In this document: positions 5,017-62,744 of the stretch, piece by piece
How positions within the stretch are numbered: position 1 is the first letter of the stretch
How the letters are laid out: each line of letters starts with the position of its first letter
Origin: Pseudomonadota bacterium
Lineage (GTDB): Bacteria; Desulfobacterota; Binatia; UBA9968
Assembly (NCBI GenBank): GCA_021324155.1
Contig: JAJPJQ010000031.1
Span: forward strand, 62,001 to 126,000
Direction: 5' to 3'
Length of the DNA stretch: 64,000 nucleotides
The notes under the pieces: model-generated
What the model was told of the DNA's origin: nothing
Databases searched by the model: none
The model's input: only the letters and a program-made list of their open reading frames with translations
Program-made: the position numbers and the translations under genes

Positions 5017-5113
5017 TCGATTAAAAAAGGTTTTGGGTTTCTAGTTTCGGGTTTTTAGAATCGAGGCTCCAATATTAGCCGCTTTTCTCGAAACTCGGAA
5101 CTCGCCACCCGAA

Positions 5114-5977
5114 CTATATCTTCCAGCTGACGAATCCCCACCCCGTCGCGACGTGATCGGGCATGTAGAACGTCTCCTTCGCCTTGGCGTCGCCCACACT
5201 CCCGATCGCGACCATCCAGTTGAGAAATTCCGAATCCCCGGCCTTGCAGATCTCCTCGACCGAGTACTCCGCCAGCGACCGGCCTTTTCCTTCGCGCAAA
5301 ATCTCCAGCAGCTTGTGATCGAAGCTCGTATCGATCTCGCCGATGCGCGGCGAGCCGGGAAAATGCGACAGGCCGCCGGTCGCGAGAATCGCGACGCGCT
5401 CTTTCCAGCCGTCGGCGACCTTGCGGATCAGCTCGCCGACCTGAAAACAGCGCCGCGGCGTGGGAATCGGCTCGACCCAGGTATTCACGTAAATCGGCAG
5501 AATGGGAATTTTCGGCTCCGGCAAAAGGAAATGCAGCGGCACCGTTTGTGTGTGCTGCAGCTCGATGTATTCGCCGAACGCGAAATCGATGCCCGCGTCG
5601 ATGCCCGCCTTCAAAATCGCTCTGCCGAGCTCCTTGCCGTTGCGATAGCGGAAGCGATGGCGCGTGAACTGGCCTTTCACTTCATCGGCGAGCGTCACGA
5701 AGAACGTCGGAATATTGTTGTAAGCGAAATTGACGAACTGATCGTTGGCCACGACGATCAGGACCTCGGGGCGCGCGGCTTCGAGATCGGCGCGCAGCGC
5801 CGCGTACGCCTTCTCGGCGTCGCGCCGGAGCTTCTGCTGCGCCTCCAGCGATGGCTTCGTGGAGGCCGCCTGCGGCGCCATGCGGTAGTGGAGCATCATG
5901 AACTCGTCCCATTCCGCTCCGGGCTCCAGCAGAATGTTCGGCGCGTGGCTGGCGGCTATGGCGGCGACAAAAGACAT
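5114..5977 (-). CDS. Class III extradiol ring-cleavage dioxygenase, catalytic (LigB-like) subunit
   Basis: This 287-residue protein is of the LigB/protocatechuate 4,5-dioxygenase family. It should bind non-heme Fe(II) and open a dihydroxylated aromatic ring next to the diol. The N-terminal AASHAPNIL supplies the first metal-ligand His. The central block VLIVVANDQFVNFAYNN, the GGLSHFPGSPRIGEID segment carrying the catalytic His, and the C-terminal HVATGWGFVSW all follow family order. It lies about 100 bases upstream of the LigA-like subunit. The intervening DNA holds an AT-rich, TTTCG-rich stretch but no gene. Substrate specificity is not deducible. Confidence 0.85.
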   Translation of the reverse strand: MSFVAAIAASHAPNILLEPGAEWDEFMMLHYRMAPQAASTKPSLEAQQKLRRDAEKAYAALRADLEAARPEVLIVVANDQFVNFAYNNIPTFFVTLADEVKGQFTRHRFRYRNGKELGRAILKAGIDAGIDFAFGEYIELQHTQTVPLHFLLPEPKIPILPIYVNTWVEPIPTPRRCFQVGELIRKVADGWKERVAILATGGLSHFPGSPRIGEIDTSFDHKLLEILREGKGRSLAEYSVEEICKAGDSEFLNWMVAIGSVGDAKAKETFYMPDHVATGWGFVSWKI

Positions 5978-29898: not shown

Positions 29899-29923
29899 GG
29901 AATTTTTTCCCGCTGCGCCGGTC
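29899..29923 (+). promoter_or_regulatory. Candidate ECF-sigma promoter (copy 1)
   Basis: GGAAT at 29899-29903 and CGGTC at 29919-29923, 15 bases apart, with a T-run following GGAAT. The site lies about 50 bases before the first small secreted protein gene. The same motif precedes three other units nearby, including the ECF sigma gene. Confidence 0.65.
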
Positions 29924-29972
29924 TTCAAGGGCAGAGAGGCCGCGCAAGGCCGGAAAGGAGGTGAGAGCGAAA

Positions 29973-30281
29973 ATGCAGCTGCAAAAATCAATACTGTCGG
30001 CGCTCTGTCTGACCGGTGTCATCGGTCTCGGCGCGGCGTCGGCCCGCGCGGACGGCGTCCTCTTCAAAGAATCGCTGAACGGCGGCAACTACTGTCACAT
30101 GAAGTTCGAATCGATCCGTGAAAGCACGCTCGGGCAAAAGCAGCCCGTTCTGAACGACGAAGGATCGACCGATATCGTCGATTTCTACGGTCCCTGCGAC
30201 CACGATCCTTTGGGGAAATACGAAGTCCGCGCGCAGGAGCTCGACTCCTGGCGCAGAAGGATCGAAGACTTTAGCGAATGA
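29973..30281 (+). CDS. Small secreted protein, uncharacterised family, copy 1
   Basis: This 102-residue protein has a Sec signal peptide (MQLQKSILSALCLTGVIGLGA, cleavage near ARA/DG). The mature part is about 75 residues and contains YCHMKF and DFYGPCDHDPLGK, giving one Cys and one or two His in each cluster. A close paralogue lies at 31899-32204, matching through the signal, the YCH motif, the PVL segment and the FYGPCDHDPLGK block. I do not recognise the family. Conserved Cys/His pairs suggest a metal or heme ligand, or a disulfide. AAAGGAGG lies 11 bases before the ATG. A strong terminator follows directly. It is probably under the adjacent ECF sigma factor. Confidence 0.75.
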   Translation: MQLQKSILSALCLTGVIGLGAASARADGVLFKESLNGGNYCHMKFESIRESTLGQKQPVLNDEGSTDIVDFYGPCDHDPLGKYEVRAQELDSWRRRIEDFSE

Positions 30282-30290
30282 CCCCAGCCG

Positions 30291-30337
30291 AAAAAAAGAG
30301 AGCCTTGGGAGAGAATTCTCTCAAGGCTCTCTTTTTC
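30291..30337. terminator. Bidirectional intrinsic terminator
   Basis: Bases 30297-30312 pair with 30317-30332 to form a 16-base-pair stem with one G-U pair and a 4-base loop. A-rich sequence (30291-30297) lies on the left and a T-run (30332-30336) on the right, so it works in both directions. It separates the converging small secreted protein gene and the anti-sigma gene. Confidence 0.9.
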
Positions 30338-30355
30338 TCTTATCTGTAAGCGCCG

Positions 30356-31129
30356 CTACGACTTGACTGCCGCGGCTTCTGTTTGCAGCATATCGACGAA
30401 ATTCCGCAGATCGTTCTGCTCCAGATCGCTCACGACCCAATAGTTCATGCCGCCTTTCGTCCAGTGAAACAGGTCGTATCCTTGGCGCTCGATTATTGTC
30501 GCCGGCGATTGTTTGTCCGACGACGCCGGCCACACGAAGACATTGATGAAATGTTTCCTGCGCTGATAGACGAGCGCCGCGACGGGTCGGTTATCGATAT
30601 AGTCGAGGCGTCCGCCGATCAGCGGAAAGCCCTGCGCGGCGAAGTCTTCGACGGGCGGAGAGAAGTCGAGCTTGCCGTTGAACCACGGTTTCACCGTGTG
30701 CTTGTCGGACGAGGGCACGTCCGCGAGATGATTCGCCATCAACGAGCGGACATGTCCGGCGAGAACCTCGCGCGCGACGAGATCGTCGCCCGCGCGCCCG
30801 CGCATGAACGGCAGCACGACGAGCAGTGCCAGCGCGGCGATCGCGACCGAAGCCGCAGCGGCGAACCATCGCCGCGGCACGGTGCGCGATGGTTTTTCGG
30901 CATTGGCCTCGCGGCGGAGCGCGAAGCGGATTTTTTGTTGCAGCTCGGCCGGCGCTTTATAGCGCAGCCCGCTTCCGCCGACGGCGCGCTGGAGCGCGCG
31001 GCGCTCCTCATACCCGTGCGCGCAAAGCCCGCAATCCTGCATATGGCGCTCGATTTCGAGCCGGCCGGGCGGATCCAATTCGCCATCGAGGTAGGCGTCG
31101 AGCAAATTTTGTGCGGCTTCGCAGTTCAT
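30356..31129 (-). CDS. Anti-sigma factor with zinc-finger (zf-HC2) and one membrane helix
   Basis: This 257-residue protein has an N-terminal anti-sigma domain with the zinc ligands His29-x3-Cys33-x2-Cys36 (HMQDCGLC) and Cys3. One membrane helix lies near residues 92-110 (AASVAIAALALLVVLPFM) and an extracytoplasmic domain of about 145 residues ends with GMNYWVVSDLEQNDLRNFVDML. Homologues bind and hold their ECF sigma factor until an envelope or redox signal arrives. The start sits 1 base after the sigma stop, so the two are translated together. The extracytoplasmic domain is the likely sensor. Confidence 0.88.
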   Translation of the reverse strand: MNCEAAQNLLDAYLDGELDPPGRLEIERHMQDCGLCAHGYEERRALQRAVGGSGLRYKAPAELQQKIRFALRREANAEKPSRTVPRRWFAAAASVAIAALALLVVLPFMRGRAGDDLVAREVLAGHVRSLMANHLADVPSSDKHTVKPWFNGKLDFSPPVEDFAAQGFPLIGGRLDYIDNRPVAALVYQRRKHFINVFVWPASSDKQSPATIIERQGYDLFHWTKGGMNYWVVSDLEQNDLRNFVDMLQTEAAAVKS

Positions 31130-31130
31130 T

Positions 31131-31757
31131 CTACGCCTTCTCTTTCAGGCGCTCTGTCAGCAGGCGCTTCAGCCGCGCCCGGGCGCGCGCCAGGCGCGAC
31201 ATGACGGTGCCGACGGGCACCGCCGCAACCTCCGCGATCTCCTTGTAAGAAAGGCCTTCCAGATCGCGCAGCACGACCGCCTCCCGATACTCCGCCGGCA
31301 GCGCTTCGATCGCCTGCGTGAGCATGCGGCCGTCGATCTCCTTCGCCGCCTGAGCCGCCGGATCCCAGGCCTCGTTCTGCTCGCTGTGGATCTTTTCGTC
31401 GAACTCCGTCATCAGCTCGCGCCCGCGGTTTTGCTGCAGCCACGTGTAGCAGGTATTGCGCACGATCGTCAGCAGCCACGCGCGGGCGTTAACGCCGGTG
31501 AACGCGTCGAAAAACTTGAACGCCCGAAGATACGACTCCTGCACCATGTCTTCGGCGTCGCGCTCGTTGCGCGTGAGCCACCGGGCGATGTTATACGCGG
31601 CGTCCATGTGAGGCAAAATCGCTTCCTCGAAGCGCGTGAGTTTGTCTTTTTCCCCCACTGTAGAGACCGCTCCTGAGCCGGATCTATTCCCGCCGGGAAC
31701 TAAAAAAAGGCTGGGCTGTAAGGCTTGTCGCGGAGACTTTCCGTGAGATTGTTGCAT
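31131..31757 (-). CDS. ECF RNA polymerase sigma factor (RpoE-like)
   Basis: This is an extracytoplasmic-function sigma factor. Region 2 contains the AYNIARWLTRNERDAEDMVQESYLRAFKFFD block and region 4 contains EALPAEYREAVVLRDLEGLSYKEIAEVAAVPVGTVMSRLARAR. The full frame gives 208 residues. A GTG at about 31658 with an upstream AGGAG would give about 175 residues, nearer the usual length, so the true start is uncertain. The anti-sigma gene follows directly. A GGAAT-N16-CGGTC motif lies upstream on the same strand, which fits autoregulation. Confidence 0.92.
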   Translation of the reverse strand: MQQSHGKSPRQALQPSLFLVPGGNRSGSGAVSTVGEKDKLTRFEEAILPHMDAAYNIARWLTRNERDAEDMVQESYLRAFKFFDAFTGVNARAWLLTIVRNTCYTWLQQNRGRELMTEFDEKIHSEQNEAWDPAAQAAKEIDGRMLTQAIEALPAEYREAVVLRDLEGLSYKEIAEVAAVPVGTVMSRLARARARLKRLLTERLKEKA

Positions 31758-31807
31758 GCGTTCCGTACCGAGTCAACGAATGCCGCGCGGCGGTGCGTCA
31801 CTCCTTA

Positions 31808-31833
31808 GACCGGTCTTCCGGATAAAAAATTCC
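31808..31833 (-). promoter_or_regulatory. Candidate ECF-sigma promoter of the sigma/anti-sigma operon (copy 2)
   Basis: On the minus strand, GGAAT (31833-31829) and CGGTC (31812-31808) are 16 bases apart, with a T-run after GGAAT. The site lies about 50 bases upstream of the sigma gene start and diverges from copy 3. Confidence 0.65.
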
Positions 31834-31847
31834 CGTTCTCCCGCTGT

Positions 31848-31873
31848 GGAATTTTTTTGCGCCGTCAACGGTC
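31848..31873 (+). promoter_or_regulatory. Candidate ECF-sigma promoter (copy 3)
   Basis: GGAAT at 31848-31852 and CGGTC at 31869-31873, 16 bases apart, with a run of Ts after GGAAT. The predicted start is about 20 bases before the GTG of the second small secreted protein gene. Confidence 0.65.
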
Positions 31874-31898
31874 CGACAAGCGAAAGGAGGTGGCGCAG

Positions 31899-32204
31899 GT
31901 GAAAAACATTAAGCCACTTTTGTCTGTCTTCGTTTTAACGGGAGTCATCGGTTTAGGGGCGGTGTCGGCGGGAGCACAGGGCGTCGTCAGCAAGGTCGAG
32001 CTCGATCGAAGCGGATATTGCCATCTGAAGTTTCCCGCGATCCAAGCAAGGACGCTCGCCTCGGCGCATCCGGTCCTGAAGGATCCCGCGTCGGGCGACA
32101 TCATCGATTTCTATGGCCCGTGCGACCACGACCCCCTCGGCAAAGAAGAGATATGGGCGCAAAAGCTCGCTCAGAGGTTCCGGATGATGATCGGCCGGGA
32201 ATGA
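31899..32204 (+). CDS. Small secreted protein, uncharacterised family, copy 2
   Basis: This is the paralogue of the protein at 29973. It has 101 residues and a signal peptide (about 27 residues, ending near GAQG), then YCHLKF, PVLKD, and DFYGPCDHDPLGK. The whole mature region aligns with copy 1 without large gaps. The GTG start at 31899 follows an AAAGGAGG site. It is divergent from the sigma gene and is likely read from its own ECF-type promoter. A GC-rich hairpin lies 20 bases after the stop. No function can be named; matched expression with a propeller/cupredoxin operon hints at copper or redox work in the periplasm. Confidence 0.75.
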   Translation: MKNIKPLLSVFVLTGVIGLGAVSAGAQGVVSKVELDRSGYCHLKFPAIQARTLASAHPVLKDPASGDIIDFYGPCDHDPLGKEEIWAQKLAQRFRMMIGRE

Positions 32205-32223
32205 CGCCCACCGGCCGGATAGC

Positions 32224-32245
32224 GCCGCCGGAGCGATCCGGCGGC
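32224..32245. terminator. GC-rich hairpin with GCGA tetraloop
   Basis: GCCGCCGGA (32224-32232) pairs perfectly with TCCGGCGGC (32237-32245) across a GCGA loop. There is no T-tract, so it may be a factor-dependent or weak terminator, or an RNA-stability stem, for the second small secreted protein gene. Confidence 0.5.
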
Positions 32246-32279
32246 GGGCATACGCTTAAACGGCTTAGCGAATCAACCG

Positions 32280-32305
32280 GGAATATTTTTGCCAGTGGAT
32301 CGGTC
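32280..32305 (+). promoter_or_regulatory. Candidate ECF-sigma promoter (copy 4)
   Basis: GGAAT at 32280-32284 and CGGTC at 32301-32305, exactly 16 bases apart. It lies about 23 bases upstream of the YVTN-propeller start codon, with an AGGAGGG site between. Confidence 0.65.
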
Positions 32306-32328: not shown

Positions 32329-33351
32329 ATGTCGAGCAACGATTATATCCACAATATCCGCGGCCGAGCCGGCCGCTGGAAGTTTTATCTAATGATAACG
32401 TTGGCGGGCTGCTTCGCGCTCGGCGCCGCAGCGCGCGCCGATGCGGCGGGGCCGAAGGCGTATATCGGCAATTTCAAAGACAACAGCGTGAGCGTCGTCG
32501 ACACCGCCGCCGGCTCGGTCGTCACGACCGTCCCGGTCTCCGCCGGGCCGCACGGTATGGCGATCACCAACAACGGCGCAACCGTCTACGTCAGCGGCGA
32601 TGGCGCTTCGTCGGTCGACGTGATCGATACGGCGAGCGACAAGGTCGTGAAAACGATCGACGTCGGCAAAACGCCGAACGGCATCGCGATTACGCCGGAC
32701 GATCGTTTGCTGCTCGTTACAGTGTACGGCGAGGACCGGCTCGATTTCGTCGATACGAAGAGCAACAGCGTCGCTTCATCCATCGCCGTGCCCAAGCCGC
32801 ACACCGTCGCGATCAGTCCCGACGGCAAGAGCGCATACGTTACGGTGCAGCAGCCCGGACAATTTGGGCTCGCGCTGATCGACATCCCCGGCCGCAAGCT
32901 CGTGCGTATCATCCCGCTCGACAAGACGCCGCGTGACGGCGAGTTCGCCTACGACGGGAAGCGCTTTTACTTTACGCAGGCTGGCGTGAGCGCCGTCCAG
33001 GTGCTCGATCCGTCATCGGACAAGGTCGTCGCGCAAATCCCGACCGGCGTCTCGCCGCACTATGTCGGCCGCACGCGCGGCATGCAGTTCGGCATCGTTG
33101 TCGTGCAGGGGCCGAGCGAACTGCTGCTGTTCGATCCGGCAACGAACAGCCCCGCGCGCAGCGTCTCCGTCGGCAAGCAGCCGCACTGGGCGACTGCCTC
33201 CGCCGACGGCAAGACCGCCTACGTCACCAATGAAGGCTCGAATGACGTGACAATCGTCGATCTCGCCAGCGGCGCCACTCGGACGGTCTCGGTCGGCAAC
33301 GCGCCGCGCAAAATCGTCGTGCAGCGTTCGGCGACGATGAAAGGAAACTAA
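32329..33351 (+). CDS. YVTN-type beta-propeller secreted protein
   Basis: This 340-residue protein has an N-terminal signal or anchor (about residues 18-38). Seven-fold YVTN-like repeats follow (for example DNSVSVVDTAAGSVVTTVPV, SSVDVIDTASDKVVKTIDVG, TPNGIAITPDD), covering the rest of the protein. Such propellers are periplasmic scaffolds or quinohemoprotein/cytochrome-like companions; no catalytic residues stand out. AAGGAGGG precedes the ATG. The cupredoxin gene starts 1 base after its stop, so the two form one unit, with a candidate ECF promoter upstream. Confidence 0.85.
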   Translation: MSSNDYIHNIRGRAGRWKFYLMITLAGCFALGAAARADAAGPKAYIGNFKDNSVSVVDTAAGSVVTTVPVSAGPHGMAITNNGATVYVSGDGASSVDVIDTASDKVVKTIDVGKTPNGIAITPDDRLLLVTVYGEDRLDFVDTKSNSVASSIAVPKPHTVAISPDGKSAYVTVQQPGQFGLALIDIPGRKLVRIIPLDKTPRDGEFAYDGKRFYFTQAGVSAVQVLDPSSDKVVAQIPTGVSPHYVGRTRGMQFGIVVVQGPSELLLFDPATNSPARSVSVGKQPHWATASADGKTAYVTNEGSNDVTIVDLASGATRTVSVGNAPRKIVVQRSATMKGN

Positions 33352-33352
33352 G

Positions 33353-33739
33353 ATGACCGCACGCACGGCCCTGCTTTCCGCCCGCTTCGCGATCGTCTCC
33401 GCGATGACCGGGCTCCTGCTCGCCGGCCTCTTCGCGCTCGCCGCGCGCGCCTCGATGGCGCGCGCGGCCGACGCGGCCGAGGGCGGCGCGAAGGTCTCGA
33501 TCGACATGTTCGCGTTCACGCCCGAAACGATCACGGTCAACCCAGGCGACAGCGTCACCTGGAGCAACGACGACGGCTCGCCGCACGGCGTCAAGTACGG
33601 CGACGGGGCGCCCGGCAACGACTATATGCTGCCGGGCGCCGCCTACACCCGGCGTTTCGACGCCGCCGGAACGTTCGATTACGCGTGCCCCATACATCCG
33701 TATATGACCGGCCGCGTCGTCGTCCGCGGCGCGCAGTGA
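33353..33739 (+). CDS. Cupredoxin (plastocyanin/azurin-like), secreted
   Basis: This 128-residue blue-copper-type protein has a signal peptide of about 40 residues. The type-1 copper ligands are visible in order: His78 (SPHGV), Cys112, His115 and Met118 (ACPIHPYM). The fold pattern FTPETITVNPGDSVTW and the C-terminal GRVVVRG match short cupredoxins. It probably carries electrons or copper in the periplasm. It is coupled to the YVTN propeller gene, so the two products may work together. Confidence 0.92.
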   Translation: MTARTALLSARFAIVSAMTGLLLAGLFALAARASMARAADAAEGGAKVSIDMFAFTPETITVNPGDSVTWSNDDGSPHGVKYGDGAPGNDYMLPGAAYTRRFDAAGTFDYACPIHPYMTGRVVVRGAQ

Positions 33740-61877: not shown

Positions 61878-62744
61878 TTAGGCCGCGGCTCCGTTCGCTG
61901 CTTCCAGCGCTTCGCAGATCATGACGCCCGTCATATAGAGCTTGTACTCGGCGCTGCCCATGAGATCGTCGACCGGCTGGAGCAAGTTGCCGAGCCGTTT
62001 TCTTTCCTCTTTGACGATGCGCCGCGCGTCGGAGAGCTTGGCTCCTTTGATCTTGCCCTCGAGGTCGGTCAGGCGCTGGGCTTTCGGTCCGACGCAACCC
62101 ACGGCGAGCCGCGCCTCCTCGATGGCGCCGCCGGCCGCGCGCGCGGCCGCGGCCACGCCGAGTGTCGGCCGCTGATAGCGGTGGAGGCGCCGGTAGGCGC
62201 TATTCATTCCCACCGGCAGCCGCGGTATCTCGACTTCTACGAGAAGCTCGCCTGGGCGGAGGGCGGTTGCGTACATGTCGATAAAAAATTCGGAAAGCGG
62301 GACGCGCCGCTCGCCGCCCGCGCCGCCGAGGATCACCGCGGGGTTGTGGACGAGCAGCGCGGTGCCGGGATCCGAGTGCGGGTCGTTAAAGGCGAGATTG
62401 CCGCCGAGCGTCCCCTGGCTGCGCACGCGCACGTTCGCCAGCTGAGACTCGGCGGACGCGAGCGCGGGCGCGTGCTCGCGGACGAGCGGATCGTTCTCAA
62501 GCGCGTGATGCGTCACGCAGGCGCCGACACGGAGCGTGCCGTCCTGCAATTGAATGCGATGCAATCGGTCGATCTTTTTGATGTCGATCAGAACTTCGGC
62601 CGCCACCAAGCCGTGGCGCACGAGCAGCAGAAGCTCGGCGCCGCCGGCGTAGATTCGCGCGTTCTCGCCGTGCTCGGCGAGCGCTTGAGATGCCTCCGCA
62701 ACGGTCGACGGCTGAAGAAGTTTTAACGAGCTCAACATGATCAA
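61878..62744 (-). CDS. CO-dehydrogenase-type FAD-binding medium subunit (CoxM-like)
   Basis: This 288-residue FAD-binding domain protein of the xanthine dehydrogenase/CoxM family has the FAD loops YAGGAELLLLVRHG (canonical AGGTDLL) and SQGTLGGNLAFNDPHSD. The medium-subunit C-terminal domain follows, with VGCVGPKAQRLTDLE. The ATG overlaps the CoxL-like stop by 4 bases. It passes electrons from the [2Fe-2S] subunit to a quinone or other acceptor. Confidence 0.9.
   Translation of the reverse strand: MIMLSSLKLLQPSTVAEASQALAEHGENARIYAGGAELLLLVRHGLVAAEVLIDIKKIDRLHRIQLQDGTLRVGACVTHHALENDPLVREHAPALASAESQLANVRVRSQGTLGGNLAFNDPHSDPGTALLVHNPAVILGGAGGERRVPLSEFFIDMYATALRPGELLVEVEIPRLPVGMNSAYRRLHRYQRPTLGVAAAARAAGGAIEEARLAVGCVGPKAQRLTDLEGKIKGAKLSDARRIVKEERKRLGNLLQPVDDLMGSAEYKLYMTGVMICEALEAANGAAA

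Follow-up and report, generated by a model that had tools for sequence, protein, structure and literature searches.

We analysed a window of 64,000 nucleotides (positions 62,001 to 126,000 of contig JAJPJQ010000031.1, assembly GCA_021324155.1) from a Pseudomonadota bacterium, in which the genes of an extracytoplasmic function (ECF) sigma factor and its anti-sigma factor lie on the minus strand, flanked on either side by the gene of a small secreted protein and followed by an operon for a secreted propeller protein and a cupredoxin (Table 1). The sigma protein contains Sigma70_r2 and Sigma70_r4_2 within 177 aa, and the gene of a zf-HC2 anti-sigma factor is directly downstream, which places it among the ECF (group 4) sigma factors. 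The initial annotation had proposed that this sigma factor recognizes four promoters of the form GGAAT-N15/16-CGGTC. All four copies were found to be exact in position, strand and spacer, and a fifth exact copy is present at 31690-31665. The interpretation as a regulon stands, but with five sites instead of four, of which the 31848 box is weak, and with the sigma operon probably having a conserved box of its own at 31690-31665. Computation establishes where the boxes lie, that they are conserved and that they are linked to the sigma gene. On this basis, it is highly likely that the five boxes form one regulon, controlled by an ECF sigma factor that a membrane anti-sigma factor keeps in check.

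Table 1. Genes and predicted control elements of the sigma factor locus (window coordinates).
Feature	Position	Strand	Remarks
ECF-type promoter box, small secreted protein 1	29899..29923	+	N15; matrix score 17.8, rank 4
Small secreted protein 1	29973..30281	+	102 aa; signal peptide by eye; unmatched in Pfam and NCBIfam
Anti-sigma factor	30356..31129	-	zf-HC2 (Pfam) with H-x3-C-x2-C; one hydrophobic segment; conserved C-terminal domain
ECF sigma factor	31131..31658	-	probable start GTG 31658; Sigma70_r2 and Sigma70_r4_2 (Pfam)
Fifth box, probably the conserved sigma self-promoter	31665..31690	-	N16; matrix score 22.5, rank 2; -10 end 6 nt before GTG 31658
Sigma-70-like element TTGACT-N17-AACAAT, possible basal sigma promoter	31748..31776	-	consensus match only
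ECF-type box, probably a second sigma operon promoter	31808..31833	-	N16; matrix score 19.2, rank 3; 149 nt before GTG 31658
ECF-type box, small secreted protein 2	31848..31873	+	N16; matrix score 8.6, rank 7, weakest of the five
Small secreted protein 2	31899..32204	+	101 aa from GTG
ECF-type box, propeller and cupredoxin operon	32280..32305	+	N16; matrix score 24.2, rank 1
Secreted YncE-like beta-propeller protein	32329..33351	+	Pfam, NCBIfam
Cupredoxin (plastocyanin/azurin-type)	33353..33739	+	Pfam; H..C-x2-H-x2-M copper-ligand pattern

The boxes and their occurrence in the genome

The exact pattern occurs five times in the window relative to an expectation of 0.42, and none of 100 shuffled sequences reached five copies; widening the spacer to 10-22 gave 11 matches (3.3 expected). 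A T/A tract follows GGAAT in all four copies described initially, and the fifth box reads GGAATAGATC at this place instead. The distance of about 20-55 bases to a start codon that had been assigned to every copy was found for three of them, at 49 nt (ATG 29973), 25 nt (GTG 31899) and 23 nt (ATG 32329). For the 31833 box it depends on the sigma start: the distance is 50 nt if translation begins at ATG 31757, but 149 nt from the likelier GTG 31658. This box and the 31848 box stand back to back (31808-31873) with their -35 ends 14 bases apart, and a similar divergent pair, without an adjoining sigma gene, was seen at related locus L175 (9273, minus strand, and 9307, plus strand).

The count was extended to the 4.80-Mb genome using exact patterns, the matrix described below being applied to the window. 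There are 30 exact matches, five of them at the locus, whereas the reversed pattern used as a control gave 5. At the density of the 25 outside copies, approximately 0.013 copies would be expected by chance in 2.4 kb. Furthermore, a start codon with a Shine-Dalgarno-like site and an open reading frame of at least 60 aa was present within 60 nt of four of the five boxes here (the exception being 31833), in comparison to one of the 25 copies elsewhere (L014). A looser pattern, GGAATWWWW-N12-14-GTC, also gave 30 matches, four of them here, with 8 for its reversed control. The 25 outside copies all lie within open frames of 188-992 codons and the five copies here within frames of 0-492 codons. Since such frames also contain four of the five sites at the locus, a long open frame was rejected as the mark of a non-promoter, this context being uninformative in a GC-rich genome.

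A promoter model from relatives and its linkage to the sigma gene

To obtain a promoter model independent of the window, contigs of other genomes were searched for the sigma factor, and the best 80 loci of a larger number (L095-L174) were kept. Most are from metagenome bins, and their phylum labels may be wrong. The upstream DNA of 68 was used, 12 having been left out as contig ends, near-duplicates or distant relatives (L140, L145, L152, L153, L155, L156, L157, L163, L166, L171, L173 and L174). A count of two-part k-mers made without any prior pattern found GGGA-N20-GTCT in 21 of the 68 loci, along with overlapping variants, whereas one base-shuffled set gave counts of no more than 6 for any pair. 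The reverse complement of this pair was also high-ranking, and therefore divergent copies are present. A one-strand expectation-maximization search from 12 random starts was not retained except as a pointer: it converged on differing motifs, the best being the reverse complement of the divergent box.

A matrix was built from GGAAT-N17/18-GTC sites, with the genome of the window left out (58 seeds, 53 of them unique, in 36 of the 68 loci). The spacing was 18 in 48 seeds and 17 in 10, these being the two values allowed. When applied to the 64-kb window, the matrix ranked the five boxes 1, 2, 3, 4 and 7, the places ranked between them scoring 9.8 and 8.8. In sixty simulated 64-kb sequences, the maxima had a mean of 11.9 and a largest value of 18.1. 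Four of the five boxes stand out by this measure, and the 31848 box is the weakest.

It is rather unlikely that only some of the five boxes are real and that the 31848 box, or the 31833 box, is a chance or decayed copy. In the 31848 box, which has a low score, GTGGAAT and GTCC replace GGGAAT and GTCT, and the 31833 box is far from the likely sigma start. However, a GGAATTTTT box that is similarly placed and also of modest score (9.4-11.4) precedes the homologous small-protein genes of genome G012 and locus L095, and the 31833 box itself scores well (Table 1).

The matrix was also compared with promoters mapped for ECF26 sigma factors of Sinorhizobium meliloti. In the part of the published promoter table that was scored, eight of nine ECF26 promoters had scores of at least 7.2, whereas none of four other promoters did, all being below -8; among 3000 random 39-mers, 99.9% scored at most 3.5 and the largest score was 8.9. 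The box therefore agrees with the promoter model of a described ECF group, a comparison that the initial annotation had suggested. These results also bear on the possibility that the boxes are not promoters but serve a DNA-binding repressor or activator as operators, as the back-to-back copies at 31833 and 31848 might suggest. We consider this very improbable, given the two-part form with a spacing of 17 or 18, the placement before start codons and the similarity to mapped ECF26 promoters.

The initial annotation had further named enrichment near homologous sigma factors in related genomes as support, and this was found in two ways. Within the bacterial family of the window, a box scoring at least 15.4 precedes the sigma gene in seven of eight loci (the window, L175 and L177-L181), and also in L095. 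Among 35 small-protein genes, two were left out owing to too little upstream DNA. A box was present before all six whose contig also encodes a close sigma relative (the window has two of them, G012 three and L095 one), with scores of 8.6-17.8 and the GTC 28-61 nt before the match, whereas all 27 other genes, including two in the same genome as the window and three more in G012, were without a box (score at most 4.0). One of these 27, L034 of genome G022, adjoins sigma relatives of approximately 41% and 31% identity, and the closer one falls outside the tree group of the window's sigma factor.

The same linkage addresses whether the boxes serve chiefly another ECF sigma factor of this genome, or are shared by several. 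A first look at the genome gave 14 places where a sigma-like protein may be encoded, and the ECF26 sigma factors of S. meliloti cross-activate one another's targets, as given in the part of PMC6180224 available to us. Nevertheless, the box precedes the sigma gene itself in most loci of the family, the small-protein genes have it only where their contig encodes a close sigma relative, and this sigma factor is the only one in the genome with a match of E 1e-25 or better, so that we regard such an assignment as improbable. Recognition by the ECF sigma factor encoded between the boxes is the best-supported interpretation, given the k-mer motif from relatives, the matrix ranks and the box-sigma linkage.

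Several observations weigh against this interpretation. Of the 30 exact copies in the genome, 25 sit away from the locus, and for this reason pattern matches alone were rejected as proof. At seed stringency, a box was found before the sigma gene in 36 of 68 loci and not in all, and in L176, where the sigma gene has an internal duplication, there is no box before it. The 31848 box scores below two other places in the window, and the 29899 box is just under the largest simulated maximum. The boxes of L178 and L095 are identical, and therefore the six linked small-protein genes are not all independent. Lastly, one mapped ECF26 promoter among the rows scored had a value of -6.9.

The probable start of the sigma gene and its candidate promoters

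The sigma gene probably starts at GTG 31658 rather than at ATG 31757. In the L175 orthologue, the codon corresponding to GTG 31658 is TTG, and no start codon separates it from the in-frame stop upstream. A single alternative lies upstream in each of the other two, a GTG at 24 codons in L177 and an ATG at 33 codons in the window (31757). In all three loci, the -10 end of a box is 6 nt before the NTG codon at the homologous place. GTG 31658 is likely the start because of this arrangement and the distribution of upstream start codons.

With this start, the box at 31690-31665 is probably the conserved self-promoter of the sigma gene, and the 31833-31808 box is then probably a second promoter of the operon, 149 nt upstream. 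A transcript from 31690-31665 would be leaderless or nearly so, because in S. meliloti the start sites are about 9-10 nt after GTC/GTT by our own count in the part of the PMC6180224 table used. AGGAG-like sites are present inside the box spacer in the window, L175 and L177. In addition, the sigma-70-like element of the window is a 9-of-12 match, of which three were found in the region relative to 1.0 in shuffled sequences, and in the window, L175, L177 and L095 the end of a TTGACT/TTGATT-N17 element is 79-93 nt upstream of the first codon of the sigma gene. It could give a leadered basal transcript, and we infer an arrangement of two promoters, one for basal and the other for self-activated expression of sigma.

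In L176 and L178 (both of genome G012, which has four loci related to the sigma gene of the window) and in L095, the N-terminal part of the sigma paralogue is partly duplicated within the gene. In L178, the box is 184 nt from the sigma gene.

The anti-sigma factor, the predicted target genes and similar systems

An anti-sigma relative is present in 68 of the 80 sigma loci. The histidine-rich C-terminal domain of the window's anti-sigma factor (30356-30793; SSDKHTVKPWF..GGRLDY) has relatives in 62 of the 80, which are 38-67% identical, and His126, His134, His144 and His193 are 91-100% conserved over 56 loci. The domain is probably periplasmic, the membrane segment, like the signal peptides, having been judged by eye. 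In the sigma tree, for which bootstrapping had not settled, 59 of the 60 rows with this domain at the locus fell into one group of 65 (support 97/97), together with six lacking it. A literature search with three peptide stretches of the anti-sigma factor and the small proteins found nothing, which is not proof of absence in print.

The two small proteins are 53% identical to each other, and neither has a match in Pfam, NCBIfam or PHROGs. For small protein 2, the best PDB match had an E value of 0.09, and the predicted structure was too poor for a fold search (mean predicted local distance difference test score, pLDDT, 62; predicted template modelling score, pTM, 0.45). Six positions are invariant in 25 aligned members of the family, two of them cysteines. 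Among 148 genomes of the class, a profile of the family matched 17, each of which is one of the 25 genomes of the window's own bacterial family; among 395 genomes drawn from the phylum it matched one, the genome of the window itself. Two further small-protein genes without a box lie in tandem on another contig of this genome (C41, locus L182, about 5022-5650). The L095 contig, which is labelled Verrucomicrobia, encodes a sigma factor 69% identical to that of the window and has a small protein belonging to this otherwise family-restricted group, and its box is the same as in L178; this is probably a wrongly binned contig or a case of gene transfer.

To survey other targets, 87 loci (814 kb, near-duplicates included) were searched, and 119 matrix matches scoring at least 14 were found in 60 loci. 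Of these, 45 precede a sigma-matching frame and 21 a cluster with secreted metallophosphatases and propellers. Among ten chosen downstream proteins, Pfam identified three metallophosphatases, four cupredoxins (one in a frame with a propeller and one below the cut-off), one DoxX and one metallo-beta-lactamase fold, with nothing for the tenth. The copper-ligand pattern was found in 32 of 68 loci, including some clearly spurious frames, with about two dozen plausible by eye; the control gave none in 130 kb of the window's own genome, compared to 650 kb searched. A literature search on ECF sigma factors with cupredoxins listed nothing on point, which does not prove absence in print.

ECF26 sigma factors, which include RpoE1, RpoE4 and RpoE6 of S. 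meliloti and SnSigE of Starkeya novella, have promoters with a -35 element GGAAT(A) and a -10 element CGTC/GT, as described in the parts of PMC6527743 and PMC6180224 available to us, and the box of the window resembles those mapped in Sinorhizobium. RpoE1 and RpoE4 are activated by sulfite-generating compounds, and the RpoE4 target operon sorT-sorU-azu2 contains a blue copper protein, a pseudoazurin (PMC3511301, available in part), as the window operon contains a cupredoxin. In contrast, RpoE6, the one ECF26 member compared by sequence, was not placed by the tree in the group of the window's sigma factor, although its branch is very long (2.8) and its placement is unsure, and its partner EcfR6 showed no match to the C-terminal domain of the anti-sigma factor. 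ECF26 anti-sigma factors consist of an N-terminal domain, a membrane segment and a C-terminus in the periplasm; here zf-HC2 is present, the membrane segment was seen by eye only, and the C-terminal domain does not match that of EcfR6. A sulfite-responsive ECF26 subtype is unsupported at the locus, a Pfam scan of ten proteins encoded there and in the flanks having found no sulfite-oxidizing enzyme. By its promoter, the system works like ECF26, but its membership would be tentative at best, given the position of RpoE6 outside the sigma group and the lack of the domain in the RpoE6 anti-sigma factor.

There is also a likeness to the actinobacterial SigR/SigH systems with the zinc anti-sigma factor RsrA: TIGR02947 (sigma) and TIGR03988 (anti-sigma) were among the better matches, both below their curated cut-offs (as was the best NCBIfam match of the sigma factor, NF009185), Mycobacterium tuberculosis SigH was the best PDB match of the sigma factor, and the H-x3-C-x2-C motif is present. 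RsrA is soluble, whereas the anti-sigma factor of the window contains a hydrophobic segment, and its C-terminal domain is long and conserved.

We propose a model in which an envelope signal would act on the C-terminal, probably periplasmic, domain of the anti-sigma factor and free the sigma factor, and RNA polymerase with the freed sigma factor would start at GGGAAT-N17/18-GTC promoters. The targets would be the sigma/anti-sigma operon itself through 31690-31665, and probably also through 31833-31808, the two small secreted cysteine-containing proteins through 29899 and 31848, and the secreted propeller and cupredoxin operon through 32280. The sigma-70-like element at 31776-31748 may supply basal sigma factor, and the products may have a role in periplasmic redox or copper handling. 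A self-regulating ECF circuit is a common kind, very probably present here in a little-studied form; within this ordinary type of circuit, the target protein family is new, and the conserved, putative sensor domain merits testing. A broader picture is possible though doubtful: a little-studied ECF group in genomes with the labels of about a dozen phyla, with an anti-sigma factor whose conserved histidine-rich domain senses copper or the redox state in the periplasm, periplasmic copper proteins as the recurrent output, a lineage-specific small secreted family recruited in this bacterial family, and sigma made from leadered housekeeping and leaderless self-activated transcripts. For this sigma group, the analysis provides promoters and targets that can be tested; it also connects uncharacterized secreted proteins with one switch and points out a conserved anti-sigma domain for which a ligand can be sought directly.

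Between the ends of the genes for small protein 1 and the anti-sigma factor (30293-30336), there is an inverted repeat of 20 pairs with A/T tracts at its ends, which is probably a two-way terminator.

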